From contig JAGODO010000003.1 in NCBI GenBank assembly GCA_017998165.1, positions 6,705 to 39,641 of the forward strand: a stretch of 32,937 nucleotides of DNA, written 5' to 3'. The stretch comes from Flavobacteriales bacterium. Lineage in GTDB: Bacteria; Bacteroidota; Bacteroidia; Flavobacteriales_F; PHOS-HE28. Made by a program: the position numbers and the translations under genes. This document shows positions 6,732 through 30,322 of this stretch, piece after piece (the first letter of the stretch is position 1; each line of letters starts with the position of its first letter). Below the pieces are notes generated by a model. It was given only the letters and a program-made list of their open reading frames with translations. It did not search any database and was not told the DNA's origin.

Positions 6732-6871
6732 GGACAAGCTTCAAGACCCAAGGCTCAAGCTTCAAGGCAAAAACTCAAGACCAAGTCCAAGACCTGGGCT
6801 TCAAGCTTCGAGGTGCAATGGATGTGTCTGGCCCATTTTGGAACTTGAGCCTTGGAACTTGAGCCTTGAAG
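6732..6871. repeat. Inverted arrays of degenerate 7-base repeats (island A)
   Basis: The spacer between the sugar transferase stop (6877) and the dehydrogenase start is built of heptads. The left array has the form nnnCAAG: GGACAAG, CTTCAAG, ACCCAAG, GCTCAAG, CTTCAAG (6732-6766), and continues less regularly to 6812. The right array is the reverse: CTTGAGC, CTTGGAA, CTTGAGC, CTTGAAG (6844-6871). The two arrays are complementary; CCAAGGCTCAAG (6748-6759) pairs perfectly with 6844-6855. The RNA could fold into a long hairpin just after the transferase stop codon, which may act as a terminator or processing site, although no long U-tract follows. Confidence 0.8.
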
Positions 6872-6876
6872 CTTCT

Positions 6877-8292
6877 CTACTTCCCGTCCCCCTTCAACAC
6901 GATGAGCGCGGTGTACGCCAGGATCTTCAGGTCCACGGCCAGGCTCATGTTCTCGATGTAGAGGATGTCGTACTTCAGCCGCCGGAGCATCTGCTCCACG
7001 TTCTCGGCGTAGCCGAATTTCACCTGGCCCCAGCTGGTGATGCCGGGGCGCACCTTGTGCAGGTGCCTGTAGTGTGGGGCCACCTTCGTGATCTCATCGA
7101 TGAAGTGCTGACGCTCTGGCCGCGGACCCACCAGGCTCATGTCGCCCTTGAGCACATTCCAGAACTGGGGCAGTTCATCCATCCGGATGCGACGCAACCA
7201 ACGGCCGATGGGCGTGATCCGGGGATCGGAGGAGTGGCTCAGCTGAGGGCCGCGGCTCTCCGCATTGTGTACCATGCTCCTGAACTTCACGATGTGGAAA
7301 GGACGCCCGTTCAGGCCGATGCGCTCCTGGCGGAAGAACACCGGTCCCTTCGAACTCAACTTCACGAACAGGGCGATGAGGGCCATCGGAACGAAAAGCA
7401 CCATCAGCGCGGTGAGGCTGAACGTGATGTCGAACGCCCGCTTCAGTGCGAACTGCCACGCCGGCATGATCTGCGGGTTCACTTCGATCAGCGGCGCACC
7501 GAAGATGCTCGTCATCTTCACGCTGCCGCTGAGGATGTCGTACATGTCAGGAATGATCTTGATGCGCACCTGCGTGCCCTCCAATTCGTTGATGATCCGG
7601 CTGATGTGCTCGTGCTCCCCGCTCTCTACGGCGATGATCGCTTCCTCCACCTGGTGTTCGGCGATGAGCGGTCGCAGTTCGTCCCACTTGCCCAGTCGCT
7701 TCAGCCCTACGCCCGTGAGCTGTTGGTCACCGCCGTTCACGCTCACGAAGCCGATGAACCGGTTGCCCGGGCTTTTGGGCATGCCTTCGATCTCCTGGTG
7801 GATCGCCACAGCGCGCTCGTTGCCGCCCACCAGCAGGGTGTTGAACCCGATCTCCCGGCCATGCACACGCCGGACCGTACGGCTGGTGAGAATGAAGCGC
7901 AGCATGAAATTCAGCAGGAAGTGCAGCCCGAACAGCACGCCGAACGAGCGGTAGTAGTAGCGGAAATTCGCCACCGTGTCGTCCAGCAGCAGCACGAAGA
8001 AGATCACCAGCGTACCGATGAAGGAGATGAGCAGCGTTTGCCCGAGCTCCTTGATCCGGAAGCGGCGCAGGATGTCCGTGTAGCCTCCGATCACCACATA
8101 CAGGCCGCACCAGAAGACAGGGATGAGCACCAGGCCGGACCAGTAGTTCGTGTCGAACGCAACGGGCACGCTGTAGTGGAACTTGGCCGGCTCCATGTAC
8201 AGCTTGCGGAAGAGGTAGAAGAGCGTCCAAGCCACGGCCGCGGAGACCAGGTCGGCCACCACGTACTTGGCTACTTGGGCACGCTTGTTCAT
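6877..8292 (-). CDS. Polyprenyl-phosphate sugar-1-phosphate transferase (WcaJ/PglC superfamily)
   Basis: A 471-residue membrane enzyme that should load a sugar-1-phosphate from a nucleotide sugar onto undecaprenyl phosphate, the first step of exopolysaccharide or O-antigen repeat assembly. Four hydrophobic segments precede residue 135. NTLLVGGNERAVAIHQEIE (151-169) starts the CoA-binding-like Rossmann domain. KRAFDITFSLTALMVL (284-299) begins the bacterial sugar transferase domain, followed by GPVFFRQERIGLNGRPF (316-332), KFRSM (336-340), the catalytic Asp372-Glu373 pair in MDELPQFWNVLKGDMSLVGP, and RPGITSWGQV (415-424). The ATG at 8292 is used, 5 bases after the stop of the lipoprotein gene; the frame extends further upstream only through that gene. 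The sugar is not predictable. Confidence 0.94.
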   Translation of the reverse strand: MNKRAQVAKYVVADLVSAAVAWTLFYLFRKLYMEPAKFHYSVPVAFDTNYWSGLVLIPVFWCGLYVVIGGYTDILRRFRIKELGQTLLISFIGTLVIFFVLLLDDTVANFRYYYRSFGVLFGLHFLLNFMLRFILTSRTVRRVHGREIGFNTLLVGGNERAVAIHQEIEGMPKSPGNRFIGFVSVNGGDQQLTGVGLKRLGKWDELRPLIAEHQVEEAIIAVESGEHEHISRIINELEGTQVRIKIIPDMYDILSGSVKMTSIFGAPLIEVNPQIMPAWQFALKRAFDITFSLTALMVLFVPMALIALFVKLSSKGPVFFRQERIGLNGRPFHIVKFRSMVHNAESRGPQLSHSSDPRITPIGRWLRRIRMDELPQFWNVLKGDMSLVGPRPERQHFIDEITKVAPHYRHLHKVRPGITSWGQVKFGYAENVEQMLRRLKYDILYIENMSLAVDLKILAYTALIVLKGDGK

Positions 8293-8297
8293 ACCGC

Positions 8298-9158
8298 TCA
8301 ATGATGTACCGTCATGTTGTCCAGGATGATCCGCGCGGTTTCCGCGCCTTCGAGTTGAGCCTCGATGTAGAACTGTCTGTTCACCGTACCGCCCGTCCCC
8401 CAAGCCGTGGAAAGGTCGATGTACATGTGTTTCCAGGGCTGCCCGCTACCGGTCGCGCCGGTCGGGTTCACCACCACGTAAGGCACCGTGTTGGCCTGCC
8501 CATTGTCATACTTCACGCCCACCACGAAGCGTGTATCACTCTTATGGTCGAACTCCAGGAACGTTGGGGTGGTGCCGTTCGGGAAGCCGGGAGTCTCCGT
8601 TGTAACGGCCCTGAATTGGGCATGTGCCGAGTCCAGCAGGATCGCCGCCGATCGCTGGCCCCGGATCACGTCGTCCGGATCGGTTACGAATTCCATGTCC
8701 AATCCGAAATCGCTGAAATCGAACAGGAAGCCCGAAGACTCGAATCCCTCTTCCCATAGTGGCTCTGCATACCACTTGAACTCCGGCCGAACAGTGACCT
8801 CCTGGCCCAACGTCAGGTCCACATCCTGGGACCAAGTGGCATAGAACGGATACTGGATGCGATCCTGGGTGATGCCGTTGCGCCGCACCCCGGCCACGAT
8901 CTTGATGTTCGTGCTTCCTTCGGACAGCACCGGGATCCTGCGGTTCTCCTGCCAGACCCCGATGGCCTCGTCGTTCGCGTACACCCACATGTCCGTGATC
9001 GCCGAGGGCACCACCTCGGAACCATCGGCCGTGCGGGCCTTGGGTTCAAGGATGCGCACGAACGAAGGCGTGCTGCCATCCTTTTCACAGGAGGACAGCA
9101 ACACAAACAGCAGCGGGGCGCACCGCACCGCCGACAAGCGAAGGGCGCGTAACGTCAT
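8298..9158 (-). CDS. Lipoprotein of unknown function in the polysaccharide operon
   Basis: A 286-residue protein with a lipoprotein signal peptide from the ATG at 9158 (MTLRALRLSAVRCAPLLF) and a lipobox LLSSC with the lipid-carrying Cys followed by EKDG. The mature part reads as beta-rich. DMWVYANDEAIGVWQ and NIKIVAGVRRNGITQDRIQY suggest an Ig-like or transthyretin-like N-terminal domain, and a second domain (GQRSAAILLDSAHAQFRAVT to YIEAQLEGAETARIILDNMTV) looks like a jelly-roll. I do not know a named family. It sits between the Gfo/Idh gene (33 bases upstream) and the sugar transferase (5 bases downstream), so it is probably made with them and may act at the outer membrane in polysaccharide export or anchoring. 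That role is inference. Confidence 0.85.
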   Translation of the reverse strand: MTLRALRLSAVRCAPLLFVLLSSCEKDGSTPSFVRILEPKARTADGSEVVPSAITDMWVYANDEAIGVWQENRRIPVLSEGSTNIKIVAGVRRNGITQDRIQYPFYATWSQDVDLTLGQEVTVRPEFKWYAEPLWEEGFESSGFLFDFSDFGLDMEFVTDPDDVIRGQRSAAILLDSAHAQFRAVTTETPGFPNGTTPTFLEFDHKSDTRFVVGVKYDNGQANTVPYVVVNPTGATGSGQPWKHMYIDLSTAWGTGGTVNRQFYIEAQLEGAETARIILDNMTVHH

Positions 9159-20344: not shown

Positions 20345-20412
20345 GTGTGAAGTGTGAGGTGTACGGTGTGAAGTCCTTCGCGAAGCGCTTCGGTGGGGCG
20401 AAGTGCGAAGTT
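20345..20412. repeat. Degenerate 7-base tandem repeats and palindromes (island B)
   Basis: Four heptads GTGTGAA, GTGTGAG, GTGTACG, GTGTGAA run from 20345 to 20372. They are followed by nested palindromes, the longest being the perfect 12-base CGAAGCGCTTCG, and by AAGTGCG and AAGTTCA units up to 20412. The island fills the space between the SDR start codon and the end of the SRP RNA. Confidence 0.65.
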
Positions 20413-20418
20413 CAGTTA

Positions 20419-20431
20419 CCCCCAAAAAAGT
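20419..20431 (-). terminator. Terminator of the SRP RNA
   Basis: On the minus strand the closing helix of the SRP RNA (CTTGCCCC, ending at 20432) is followed by A, C and a run of six T (20424-20429). The terminal helix plus U-tract fits intrinsic termination. Confidence 0.7.
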
Positions 20432-20529
20432 GGGGCAAGCGACCCGCATCGCACCGCTACAACCGTTTACCCTTGCTGCCTTCCGGCCCTGGGGGATTCA
20501 ACGGGAGCTGGTCGTACGGGACTTGCCCC
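20432..20529 (-). ncRNA. ffs: Signal recognition particle RNA (small bacterial type)
   Basis: On the minus strand a 98-nucleotide RNA begins GGGGCAAG and ends CTTGCCCC, an 8-bp closing helix. The middle holds the strongly conserved domain IV: CAGGGCCGGAAGGCAGCAAG, with the GGAA tetraloop and the asymmetric loop that binds Ffh. Inner helices (CCGTT with AACGG, CCCG with CGGG) are present. The length is that of the 4.5S-type RNA. The RNA works with Ffh to target membrane and secreted proteins to the translocon. Its 5' end lies 4 bases after a TATCTTCG promoter box, and a U-tract follows the 3' end. Confidence 0.95.
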
Positions 20530-20533
20530 GGGG

Positions 20534-20541
20534 CGAAGATA
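20534..20541 (-). promoter_or_regulatory. -7 promoter box of the SRP RNA gene
   Basis: TATCTTCG on the minus strand ends 4 bases before the structural 5' end of the SRP RNA. This fits the Bacteroidota -7 consensus and gives an internal ruler for transcription start distance in this genome. The -33 region lies inside the heptamer repeats of island C. Confidence 0.6.
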
Positions 20542-20545
20542 GCTG

Positions 20546-20618
20546 TCGGTTGACGGTTGACAGTTGTCGGTTGTCGGTTGTCCGGCTTCCGACGCTGCCC
20601 CACGAAGCCGGACAACCG
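20546..20618. repeat. Five 7-base tandem repeats joined to a perfect 15-bp inverted repeat (island C)
   Basis: Five heptads TCGGTTG, ACGGTTG, ACAGTTG, TCGGTTG, TCGGTTG run from 20546 to 20580. The last unit is also the start of a stem: CGGTTGTCCGGCTTC (20575-20589) pairs perfectly with 20604-20618 across a 14-base loop. The hairpin ends 5 bases from the stop of the minus-strand gene at 20624, where it could act as a terminator or mRNA 3' stabiliser, though no U-tract follows. Confidence 0.85.
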
Positions 20619-20623
20619 CGCCC

Positions 20624-21262
20624 TCACCGCTTCGTGTTCAGCGCGTTCTCGAGTGCCTCGGTGTACAAGGCCATCACCTGGTTGCCGGTGAGGCCCATCT
20701 TCTCGTCGTATCCGGGCTGCCACCCGGCTTGGCGCTTCAGGTCCGTAGCGCGTGTGCGCTCCATGTACTTCGCTGTCCGGTTGCCCGCGCCGTCGTAGGT
20801 CTCCACGGTCACCTTCATCTCGATGGAGCGGTCGGGTGTCTTCTTCCGGGGGTTCTCGCTCTTGCGCAGAACGGCGAAGACCGTGACCTCCACTTCCACC
20901 ACCATGCCGAATTTGCCATCGGCCAGCACCGCTTTCACTTTCCGGTCGGGAAAGCCGGTGATGCGCTCTTTGCCTTCTCCGCCCGCCGTGCCGTCAACGT
21001 TGAGGTTCTCCAGCCGGATGTCGAGCCGTTTGTCCAGTAGCGCGATGGTGTGGTTGTAGATGGTATCCGCCGTGGGCACGGTGGCAATGGAGCCATCCGC
21101 CGCCTTGTAGGTGAACACCGTGCTGGTGTCGCTCCAGATGGAGTAGGCGGTATCGGCCGTCCAGAAGCGGAAGCGCGAGATGGTGGCGTTCTGGGCGTGC
21201 AGGAAGGAGGAAGCCAGTGCGAAGGACAGGACGCTCAGTATGCGCGGGGGCAGTGTGCTCAT
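20624..21262 (-). CDS. Small secreted hypothetical protein
   Basis: A 212-residue protein I do not recognise. The signal peptide is MSTLPPRILSVLSFALASSFLHAQ. The mature part is beta-rich early (ISRFRFWTADTAYSIWSDTSTVFTYKAADG), then LDKRLDIRLENLNVDGTAG and a run of charged strands (MVVEVEVTVFAVLRKSEN, RSIEMKVTVETYDGAGNRT), and ends with a helix (QVMALYTEALENALNTKR). No catalytic motif or lipobox is seen. The ATG at 21262 is directly preceded by TACTTTGC (21270-21277) with 7 bases between. It is probably periplasmic, and envelope assembly or stress is possible but not shown. Confidence 0.75.
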   Translation of the reverse strand: MSTLPPRILSVLSFALASSFLHAQNATISRFRFWTADTAYSIWSDTSTVFTYKAADGSIATVPTADTIYNHTIALLDKRLDIRLENLNVDGTAGGEGKERITGFPDRKVKAVLADGKFGMVVEVEVTVFAVLRKSENPRKKTPDRSIEMKVTVETYDGAGNRTAKYMERTRATDLKRQAGWQPGYDEKMGLTGNQVMALYTEALENALNTKR

Positions 21263-28943: not shown

Positions 28944-30280
28944 TGCCGACCATGGGCGGTGGCCGCTTCCATGTGCCCGTCCCCATTGATGCGCATGAGC
29001 GGTGTTTCCACGATGCCGTTGACCGATGAATGCTCGAACGGCGCGCTCACCCGGATGTAGTTGTCGGTGTAGCCCAGCATGGTGCCGTCCACGTTCTCCG
29101 CTTCCCACAACACCGGACGTTCCGTGCCGGTGTGCCGCTCGTAGTGCGCGCGCTGGAATTTGCTCCCGAGGATCCGTAGCTGCTTGGTGCGCTCGCGACG
29201 AACGTCCATCGGTACGACGTCCTCCATGCGTACCGCCGTGGTGTTGGCGCGTTCGCTGTAGGTGAAGACGTGCAGGTAGTCCACCGCGATGGAGCGCAGG
29301 AAGGCATGCGTCTTCAGGAATTCCTCGTCCGTTTCGCCCGGCGTGCCGGTGATCACGTCCGCGCCGATGCAAGCGTGCGGCATCACGCGTTTGATGTGCG
29401 CGGCACGATCAGCGTACAACGTGGTGTCATAGCGGCGGCGCATGCGTTGGAGGATGGCATCGCTGCCGCTCTGCAAGGGCATGTGGAAGTGCGGCATGAA
29501 CTTGCCGCTCGCCGCCACGAAGTCGATGATGCGGTCATCGCACAGGTTCGGCTCGATGCTGCTGATGCGGAAGCGTTCGATGCCCGCCACACGGTCCAAT
29601 GCCTCGATCAAGGACAGGAGATCCTCGCCGTGCACGCGACCGAAGTCACCGGTGTTCACGCCGGTCAACACGATCTCCTTCACCCCGTTCGCCGCGATAT
29701 CGTTCGCGATGGCGACCGTCTCGGCGATGGTGGCACTGCGGCTCCTCCCGCGCGCAAGGGGAATGGTGCAGAAGGAGCAGAAGTAGTCGCATCCGTCCTG
29801 CACCTTCAAGAAGGTCCGGGTCCTATCGTTGGCGTTGTAGGAGGGAACGAAGGTCCTTACATCCTTGATGGGCGAGAAATGCGCGATACCGCCCTCGATC
29901 CCCGACCCCTTTTCCCGGGGAGAAGGGGCGTTCAGGGATCTTTCGACATACCCCGCCAGGTCGAACTTCTCGTTCGCGCCCAGCACGAGATCCACTCCCG
30001 GGATGGCAGCGATCTCCGTGGGCTTCAATTGCGCGTAACAACCCACCACCGCCACGAACGCCTCCGGATTGATGCGCTGGAACCGACGTACCCACTGGCG
30101 GCACTCCTTGTCCGCATTCTCCGTCACGCTGCATGTGTTGAGCACGAAAACGTCCGGTCGCTCCTCCACCTTCACGCGGGCATAGCCTGCTTCCTCCAGC
30201 GAACGCGCGAGCGTGCTGGTCTCGGCGAAGTTCAGCTTGCAGCCAAGGGTGTGGAAGGCGGCGGTCTTTGAGTTGCCCAT
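28907..30280 (-). CDS. mtaB: tRNA t6A37 methylthiotransferase
   Basis: A 457-residue radical-SAM enzyme that converts N6-threonylcarbamoyladenosine at tRNA position 37 to its 2-methylthio form. The N-terminal UPF0004 domain has the three cluster cysteines Cys14 (TLGCKLNF), Cys50 (LNTCSVTE) and Cys81 (VVGCYAQ). The radical-SAM motif DGCDYFCSFCTIP gives Cys164, Cys168 and Cys171. HMPLQSGSD, TGTPGETDEEF and the C-terminal TRAM-like part follow. TLGCKLN marks MtaB rather than MiaB (which has TYGCQMN). The ATG at 30280 is used; an in-frame ATG at 30304 would add eight residues. Both ends of the gene run into octamer repeats, and the C-terminal residues QQSFTSSDHLMV are encoded by island D. TACTTTCG (30339-30346) is the likely promoter box. 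First gene of an operon with lgt and suhB. Confidence 0.94.
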   Translation of the reverse strand: MGNSKTAAFHTLGCKLNFAETSTLARSLEEAGYARVKVEERPDVFVLNTCSVTENADKECRQWVRRFQRINPEAFVAVVGCYAQLKPTEIAAIPGVDLVLGANEKFDLAGYVERSLNAPSPREKGSGIEGGIAHFSPIKDVRTFVPSYNANDRTRTFLKVQDGCDYFCSFCTIPLARGRSRSATIAETVAIANDIAANGVKEIVLTGVNTGDFGRVHGEDLLSLIEALDRVAGIERFRISSIEPNLCDDRIIDFVAASGKFMPHFHMPLQSGSDAILQRMRRRYDTTLYADRAAHIKRVMPHACIGADVITGTPGETDEEFLKTHAFLRSIAVDYLHVFTYSERANTTAVRMEDVVPMDVRRERTKQLRILGSKFQRAHYERHTGTERPVLWEAENVDGTMLGYTDNYIRVSAPFEHSSVNGIVETPLMRINGDGHMEAATAHGRQQSFTSSDHLMV

Positions 30281-30322
30281 GTGCTCATCTGCCCATGCGG
30301 ACATGTGCCCATGTCATCATGT
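30275..30322. repeat. Degenerate 8-base tandem repeats across the mtaB start codon (island E)
   Basis: Six octads on the plus strand, GCCCATGT, GCTCATCT, GCCCATGC, GGACATGT, GCCCATGT and CATCATGT, fill 30275-30322. The mtaB start codon (30278-30280) is in the first. On the minus strand most units contain an ATG, each one frame apart from its neighbour, so the array creates several alternative start codons. Confidence 0.8.

Follow-up and report, generated by a model that had tools for sequence, protein, structure and literature searches.

Tandem heptamers beside the SRP RNA gene of a Flavobacteriales bacterium as a probable copy of a dispersed family of intergenic hairpins

The small SRP RNA gene (ffs) of a Flavobacteriales bacterium is preceded by a run of tandem heptamers (island C) which, together with a perfect inverted repeat behind the stop codon of the next gene upstream, is best interpreted as a single member of a hairpin family scattered through the genome; it appears fairly likely that this family is a lineage-amplified set of intergenic elements with opposed tandem-heptamer arms. 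Comparison within the genome and among relatives establishes the architecture of these elements, their dispersal, their preference for positions behind stop codons and the absence of the array from ffs in the relatives. Any action of the element would most likely take place on the 3' side of the gene that precedes ffs, behind its stop codon, and the effect on ffs itself is probably small. What seemed peculiar to a single RNA gene becomes a genome-wide pattern.

The -7 consensus of Bacteroidota is TAnnTTTG, and a -7-like promoter box, TATCTTCG, lies at positions 20534-20541 of the minus strand in the analyzed stretch of 32,937 nucleotides (hereafter the window), with a box of the same type at this place in 20 relatives. 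The gene served by this box, ffs, was identified on the minus strand at 20429-20535 (RF04183 in Rfam, 109.2 bits, full model 1-107). Read along the minus strand, a gene encoding 212 amino acids without a Pfam family (20624-21262, TGA at 20626-20624) is followed after 5 bases by the inverted repeat (20618-20604/20589-20575), island C (20582-20544), the box (20541-20534), ffs and the T-rich stretch at its end, island B and the gene of a short-chain dehydrogenase (PF00106, 19528-20331, minus strand). The sole match in a scan for canonical terminators was the 3' end of ffs.

The earlier note described ffs as flanked by two heptamer islands, and both exist, island C far beyond chance expectation and island B marginally so. 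Island C (20544-20582), composed of CAACCGA/CAACTGT-type units on the minus strand, was reported by TRF with a period of 7, 5.6 copies and a score of 57; its period-7 score was reached at a single position among the 32,898 of the window and in none of 60 first-order Markov windows. With the box at 20534-20541 on the minus strand, the array abuts it and fills the stretch upstream, so that the placement of the heptamers next to the -7 box and in the -33 region of ffs stands as originally described. At its other end the array, which forms the long arm of the hairpin, runs into the left arm of the inverted repeat (CGGTTGTCCGGCTTC, 20575-20589), and the right arm (GAAGCCGGACAACCG, 20604-20618), identical to it over all 15 nt (100%) in inverted orientation, begins 5 nt past the TGA of the upstream gene. 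The structure is lopsided, the far arm scarcely exceeding one heptamer. Folded as DNA it reaches -20.1 kcal/mol vs -13.6 in shuffled sequences (z -2.95), and as RNA z values of -2.94 and -3.63 are obtained for the two strands. Since no U-run follows, this hairpin is not a standard terminator.

Island B (20345-20374), a weak GTGTGAA array with a TRF score of 32 and 73% matches, is close to the background of the scan and was equalled or bettered in 5 of 60 simulated windows; it folds no better than its shuffled versions (z -0.61 as DNA, -1.00 as RNA). The palindrome CGAAGCGCTTCG at 20381-20392 was listed under the same island. The exact pattern CTTCRCACTTCRCAC, tried as the signature of a genome-wide family, was discarded, as it gave seven matches, two of which are the window's own, against six for the control. 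By eye, loci L244 and L245 have inverted arrays of the GTGTGAA type. Judged by its sequence, island B is an array of a different heptamer word, weaker and one-sided, which is carried by this genome and lacking in the nearest relative.

The family to which island C is assigned was delineated with the pattern AACYGWCAACYGWCAAC, which, with one mismatch allowed, has 159 matches in the genome vs 2 for the reversed control. The common plan comprises (GTTGTCG)n, often followed by GGCTGCCG, then a core of variable length and the reverse complement. Clusters were extracted from 30 pattern loci, 32 stretches of the same genome (29 surrounding sites from the first 100 of the 159 matches and three around Y1_Tnp genes), the window and a 20-contig sample; those with fewer than three unit matches were removed, which leaves out single-armed copies such as L010 and L016. 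In the resulting set, the order (GTTGTCG)n...(CGACAAC)n was found in 37 of 39 clusters and the opposite order in none; in the remaining two (the window and L017) the pattern matches the left arm only, and a right-hand arm is visible by eye in both. Cluster sizes range from 25 to 199 bases, with a median of 117. The consensus of the arms is symmetric.

The periodicity of seven is equally characteristic. Strict arrays in 202.5 kb (the window plus the 20 contigs) number eight at period 7, and the remaining periods between 4 and 15 have three in total. When looser arrays were considered, a downstream inverted partner was present for 10 of 23 arrays of period 7 and for 1 of 121 arrays of periods 5, 6 and 8-12 together (Fisher p 1.5e-8), in a sample in which three of the ten partnered rows represent one doubled element in L141 and which includes the window, itself chosen for its islands. 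GTTGTCG is not the sole word, GGAGAAT, GAGTGGC and others being used in the same genome.

With gene positions taken from a simple codon-based model of our own making, 38 of the 39 clusters are intergenic, non-coding sequence making up 12.0% of the 202.5-kb sample; the exception, L115, falls within a predicted frame of 2376 bases that may be an error of the model. Among the 35 clusters with both neighbors, 13 and 10 lie between tandem genes, nine between convergent and three between divergent ones, although 28% of intergenic bases belong to divergent gaps (p 0.012). Between tandem genes the stop codon is closer than the next start in 18 of 23 cases (p 0.011). Two single-armed copies, in L016 and L010, are located in frame inside genes. 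The L016 gene encodes an amidase (Pfam PF01425), read as GatA-type, and the L010 gene was read by eye as a glycosyltransferase. With the heptamer copy at L016:1496-1535, a variable loop of the amidase is 7-9 residues longer: the aligned region spans 61 residues, vs 52-54 in the 16 congener loci caught by the pattern out of 29 fetched.

Two further repeats were noted in the window. The third heptamer-armed hairpin, with TCAAGGC/GCCTTGA-type words, occupies 6735-6874, directly behind the stop (6877) of the gene at 6877-8403; one of its 20-nt arm pairs is 90% complementary, and its RNA fold (z -3.77) is better than that of all 200 shuffled sequences. A degenerate 8/16-bp TGCCCATG repeat is located at 30274-30322.

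Taken together with the dispersal of the family, the ffs locus of related genomes bears on the suggestion of the earlier note that changes in repeat number act as a promoter switch, i.e. that the heptamers constitute a phase-variable or tuning upstream element of ffs in which gain or loss of units sets the output of SRP RNA. Across 20 relatives (19 congener loci and the metagenome-assembled genome SZAS-75), five positions of the -7 box are invariant and the other three carry 1.5 bits or more; upstream of it, all columns between -50 and -1 stay at or below 0.65 bits. The island C array is present at ffs in none of the 20, so the gene manages elsewhere without it. In SZAS-75, the nearest relative in which the gene order is the same, the box is TATCTTTG and neither island is found. 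By eye, the spacer between the upstream stop codon and the -7 box is about 100 nt there vs 82 here and contains scattered heptamer-like pieces, so a clean insertion does not account for island C; between ffs and the dehydrogenase gene the spacer measures about 31 nt there vs 97 here. From these spacers, island B looks like added sequence and island C like replaced sequence.

The abutment of array and box speaks for such a switch, as does the situation in G239, a genome of another family of Bacteroidia, in which TAnnTT[TC]G follows 7 of 12 arrays in the same orientation at a distance of 5-13 nt, vs none of 12 for the control motif. The array-before-box geometry therefore recurs, and the idea has a parallel, though it is not the rule in the genus. 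The arrays of G239 (L345-L349, L358-L364) are made of CAACTGA, and most of the seven box-adjacent ones follow a T-run and CTGAC; they may be real promoter elements. On the other side, in the genome studied here TAnnTT[TC]G occurs within 25 nt of 4 of 81 array ends, vs 1 of 81 for the control motif, and the corresponding counts are 0/33 in G053, 0/16 in G059, 0/8 in G226, 0/6 in G002, 0/9 in G054 (control 2), 0/4 in G326 and 0/1 in G183, with single cases in G052 (1/16) and G027 (1/5). Besides, an extra tandem unit would leave the bases at -33 nearly unchanged, contrary to the proposal that each gained unit alters the upstream element. Membership of island C in a dispersed family, the lack of an array or of conserved upstream sequence at ffs in the relatives, and the change of words at gene boundaries described below make a phase-variable ffs promoter unlikely; it was set aside as the main reading on the relatives' ffs genes and the box counts of the own genome, and G239 keeps it as a rival.

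Under the preferred reading, a copy of a dispersed hairpin family, the long arm would by coincidence occupy the unconserved sequence that precedes the ffs -7 box. On RNA, the hairpin would stand directly behind the stop of the gene at 20624-21262, where it could protect the 3' end of the message and separate this message from ffs. The family itself may have multiplied as a neutral repeat or one of slight benefit, with slippage inside each arm and copying from one arm to the other keeping the two similar.

The abundance of the family varies widely among genomes. In 45 relatives, heptamer matches range from none (10 of the 45) to 243 (G049). An inverted partner was found for 1 of 19 period-7 arrays in a 400-kb sample of G004 (other periods, 3/320) and for 2 of 29 in a sample of G010 (other periods, 1/491), which indicates that some congeners have the pattern at low density; likewise, congener loci not picked for heptamers (19 ffs, 19 Y1 and 29 gatA) contained ten period-7 arrays, none of them partnered. 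In a class-wide sample, the 24-base pattern is present in 30 of 295 genomes. Outside the genus, the inverted plan is seen in G226 (4/4) and G027 (2/3) and is missing from the arrays of G326 (0/4) and G239 (0/6). A cyanobacterial genome reached through L195 had no matches. The G326 locus L341:403-532 contains a near-perfect single-armed array of about 18 AACCGTC units.

Dispersed palindromic elements in intergenic regions, with copy numbers that differ between species, would also be expected of a REP element or MITE that a transposase such as RAYT mobilizes, and the genome does encode three Y1_Tnp proteins. REP elements associated with RAYTs are described as palindromic, present in many copies and located downstream of genes, with some inside genes (PMC3733652). 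All three Y1_Tnp genes are, however, flanked by unrelated palindromes of their own, and the sole heptamer unit in the three stretches is about 1.7 kb from one of the genes; a RAYT-borne REP was rejected as the likely carrier, since family copies flank none of the three. These RAYT-like genes (L132:138-833, L130:1493-2206 and L131:1107-1865) are each accompanied by a different G+C-rich palindrome, as in REP-RAYT pairs. Target-site duplications are likewise lacking: beside the array ends of the 39 clusters no exact match of 5-9 nt was found and one of 4 nt was, and a clean insertion with duplication was seen neither there nor in the comparison with SZAS-75. Most hairpin cores bear no relation to one another (a relative at 1e-4 exists for 7 of 34), unlike those of a classical mobile element, and the arms are heptamer arrays of several words. 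In view of this evidence, transposase-driven spread is improbable, and the heptamer periodicity and the distance from the Y1_Tnp genes of the same genome set the family apart from REP/RAYT systems.

Another alternative is that the arrays are simple repeats made independently by slippage, with no function and with the inverted order as a by-product of hairpin template switching. Heptanucleotides are the commonest long repeat class in most surveyed prokaryotic genomes (Mrazek 2007, as cited in PMC4679880), and different words can occupy the same site. The strict left-right order of the arms is at odds with this explanation, and the dominance of one word with 159 dispersed matches requires copying between places; independent slippage thus deserves little credence compared with the spread of a hairpin family.

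The replacement of words was followed at conserved gene boundaries. At the first site of L101, GGCGAAT-type arms are found in G010 and G039, and in G051 by eye, where the detector missed them; G053 has nothing. At the second site, G010 and G039 carry a non-heptamer palindrome, G051 has GAGTGGC arms and G053 one arm (by eye). For six sites of the own genome both flanks could be located in G010, and three of them (the first site of L101 and elements 35 and 38) coincide with a period-7 inverted locus of another word; no such locus was found at the second site of L101 or at elements 2 and 12, although a degenerate remnant is visible by eye at element 2. At site 13, G010 has other downstream sequence and no hairpin. 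The same detector returned 12 period-7 inverted loci in 480 kb of G010, several of which look like chance by eye, and 1 to 5 loci for each other period. Assuming about 440 intergenic regions in the 480 kb, which is our estimate, the co-location has a p of 3.8e-4 (3/6 sites), or 0.0043 for the sites from an even sample (2/4). Element 9, the only site open to comparison in G004, is empty there, and sites 25, 27 and 28 differ in gene order. Orthologous boundaries of other species can, from these comparisons, carry hairpins of different heptamers, and different words at the same boundaries in related species are more like a spreading genome repeat than an ffs switch.

The closest known kind is the GGGAATC repeat of Xanthomonas, described by Rehm et al. 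in 2015 (PMC4692102) as short tandem repeats of a heptamer, of which 89-93% are intergenic; most follow an ORF closely, they are rare between divergent ORFs, and there are 70 (Xcc) and 75 (Xac) convergent inverted array pairs. The authors identified no role in gene regulation. The window family shares with it the 7-nt tandem units, the convergent inverted arrays, the location at gene 3' ends, the intergenic placement and the avoidance of divergent gaps. The differences are that the single G-rich word of Xanthomonas has been read as a G-quadruplex former, whereas here several words without G-runs coexist, GGGAATC not being among the words of the family, and that nearly every cluster here is an inverted pair. 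TAACTGA direct repeats are reported from Beggiatoaceae, Cyanobacteria and five Bacteroidetes by MacGregor (2015; PMC4679880), with one inverted case in 170 sets in the main genome and 7-nt indels between Cyanothece strains; in the same source, Mrazek is credited with the suggestion that seven bases may be a length interacting with polymerase. Those repeats resemble the present ones in being dispersed intergenic heptamer arrays of a word close to the CAACTGA/CAACCGA found here, but they are mostly direct repeats upstream of start codons, in contrast to the inverted pairs behind stops; the words and positions in the own genome do not correspond to exact TAACTGA just upstream of starts. The intergenic repeat csR1.1 of Nostoc 7120 (ttgtcagttgtcagttgtca; GTTGTCA in tandem, 44 appearances) is reported to form no hairpin (PMC2408588); the same heptamer word occurs in tandem in the present family. 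No report of such heptamer hairpins in this bacterial group was found in the mostly open-access literature searched. Relative to these known kinds, the many words within one genome and the turnover of words at conserved sites appear, on sequence evidence, to be new.

Heptamer tandem repeats of bacteria are known but unexplained, and here nearly all of them form inverted pairs located behind genes. Where repeats precede an essential gene, they should not be read as a switch before a genome-wide check. Why the unit is seven and how the words spread can be tested by comparison of sister strains. A more tentative proposal, to which we lean less than to the alternative that it is wrong, is that a hairpin site is older than its sequence, the hairpin persisting while both arms are rewritten from word to word, lineage by lineage. 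If so, an active process, such as concerted copying between arms and sites, would renew post-stop hairpins in the genus, and a dedicated enzyme or protein binding in 7-nt steps might be involved; the single arms upstream of -7 boxes, at ffs and in 7 of the 12 arrays of G239, would then represent an additional use of these words on the promoter side.
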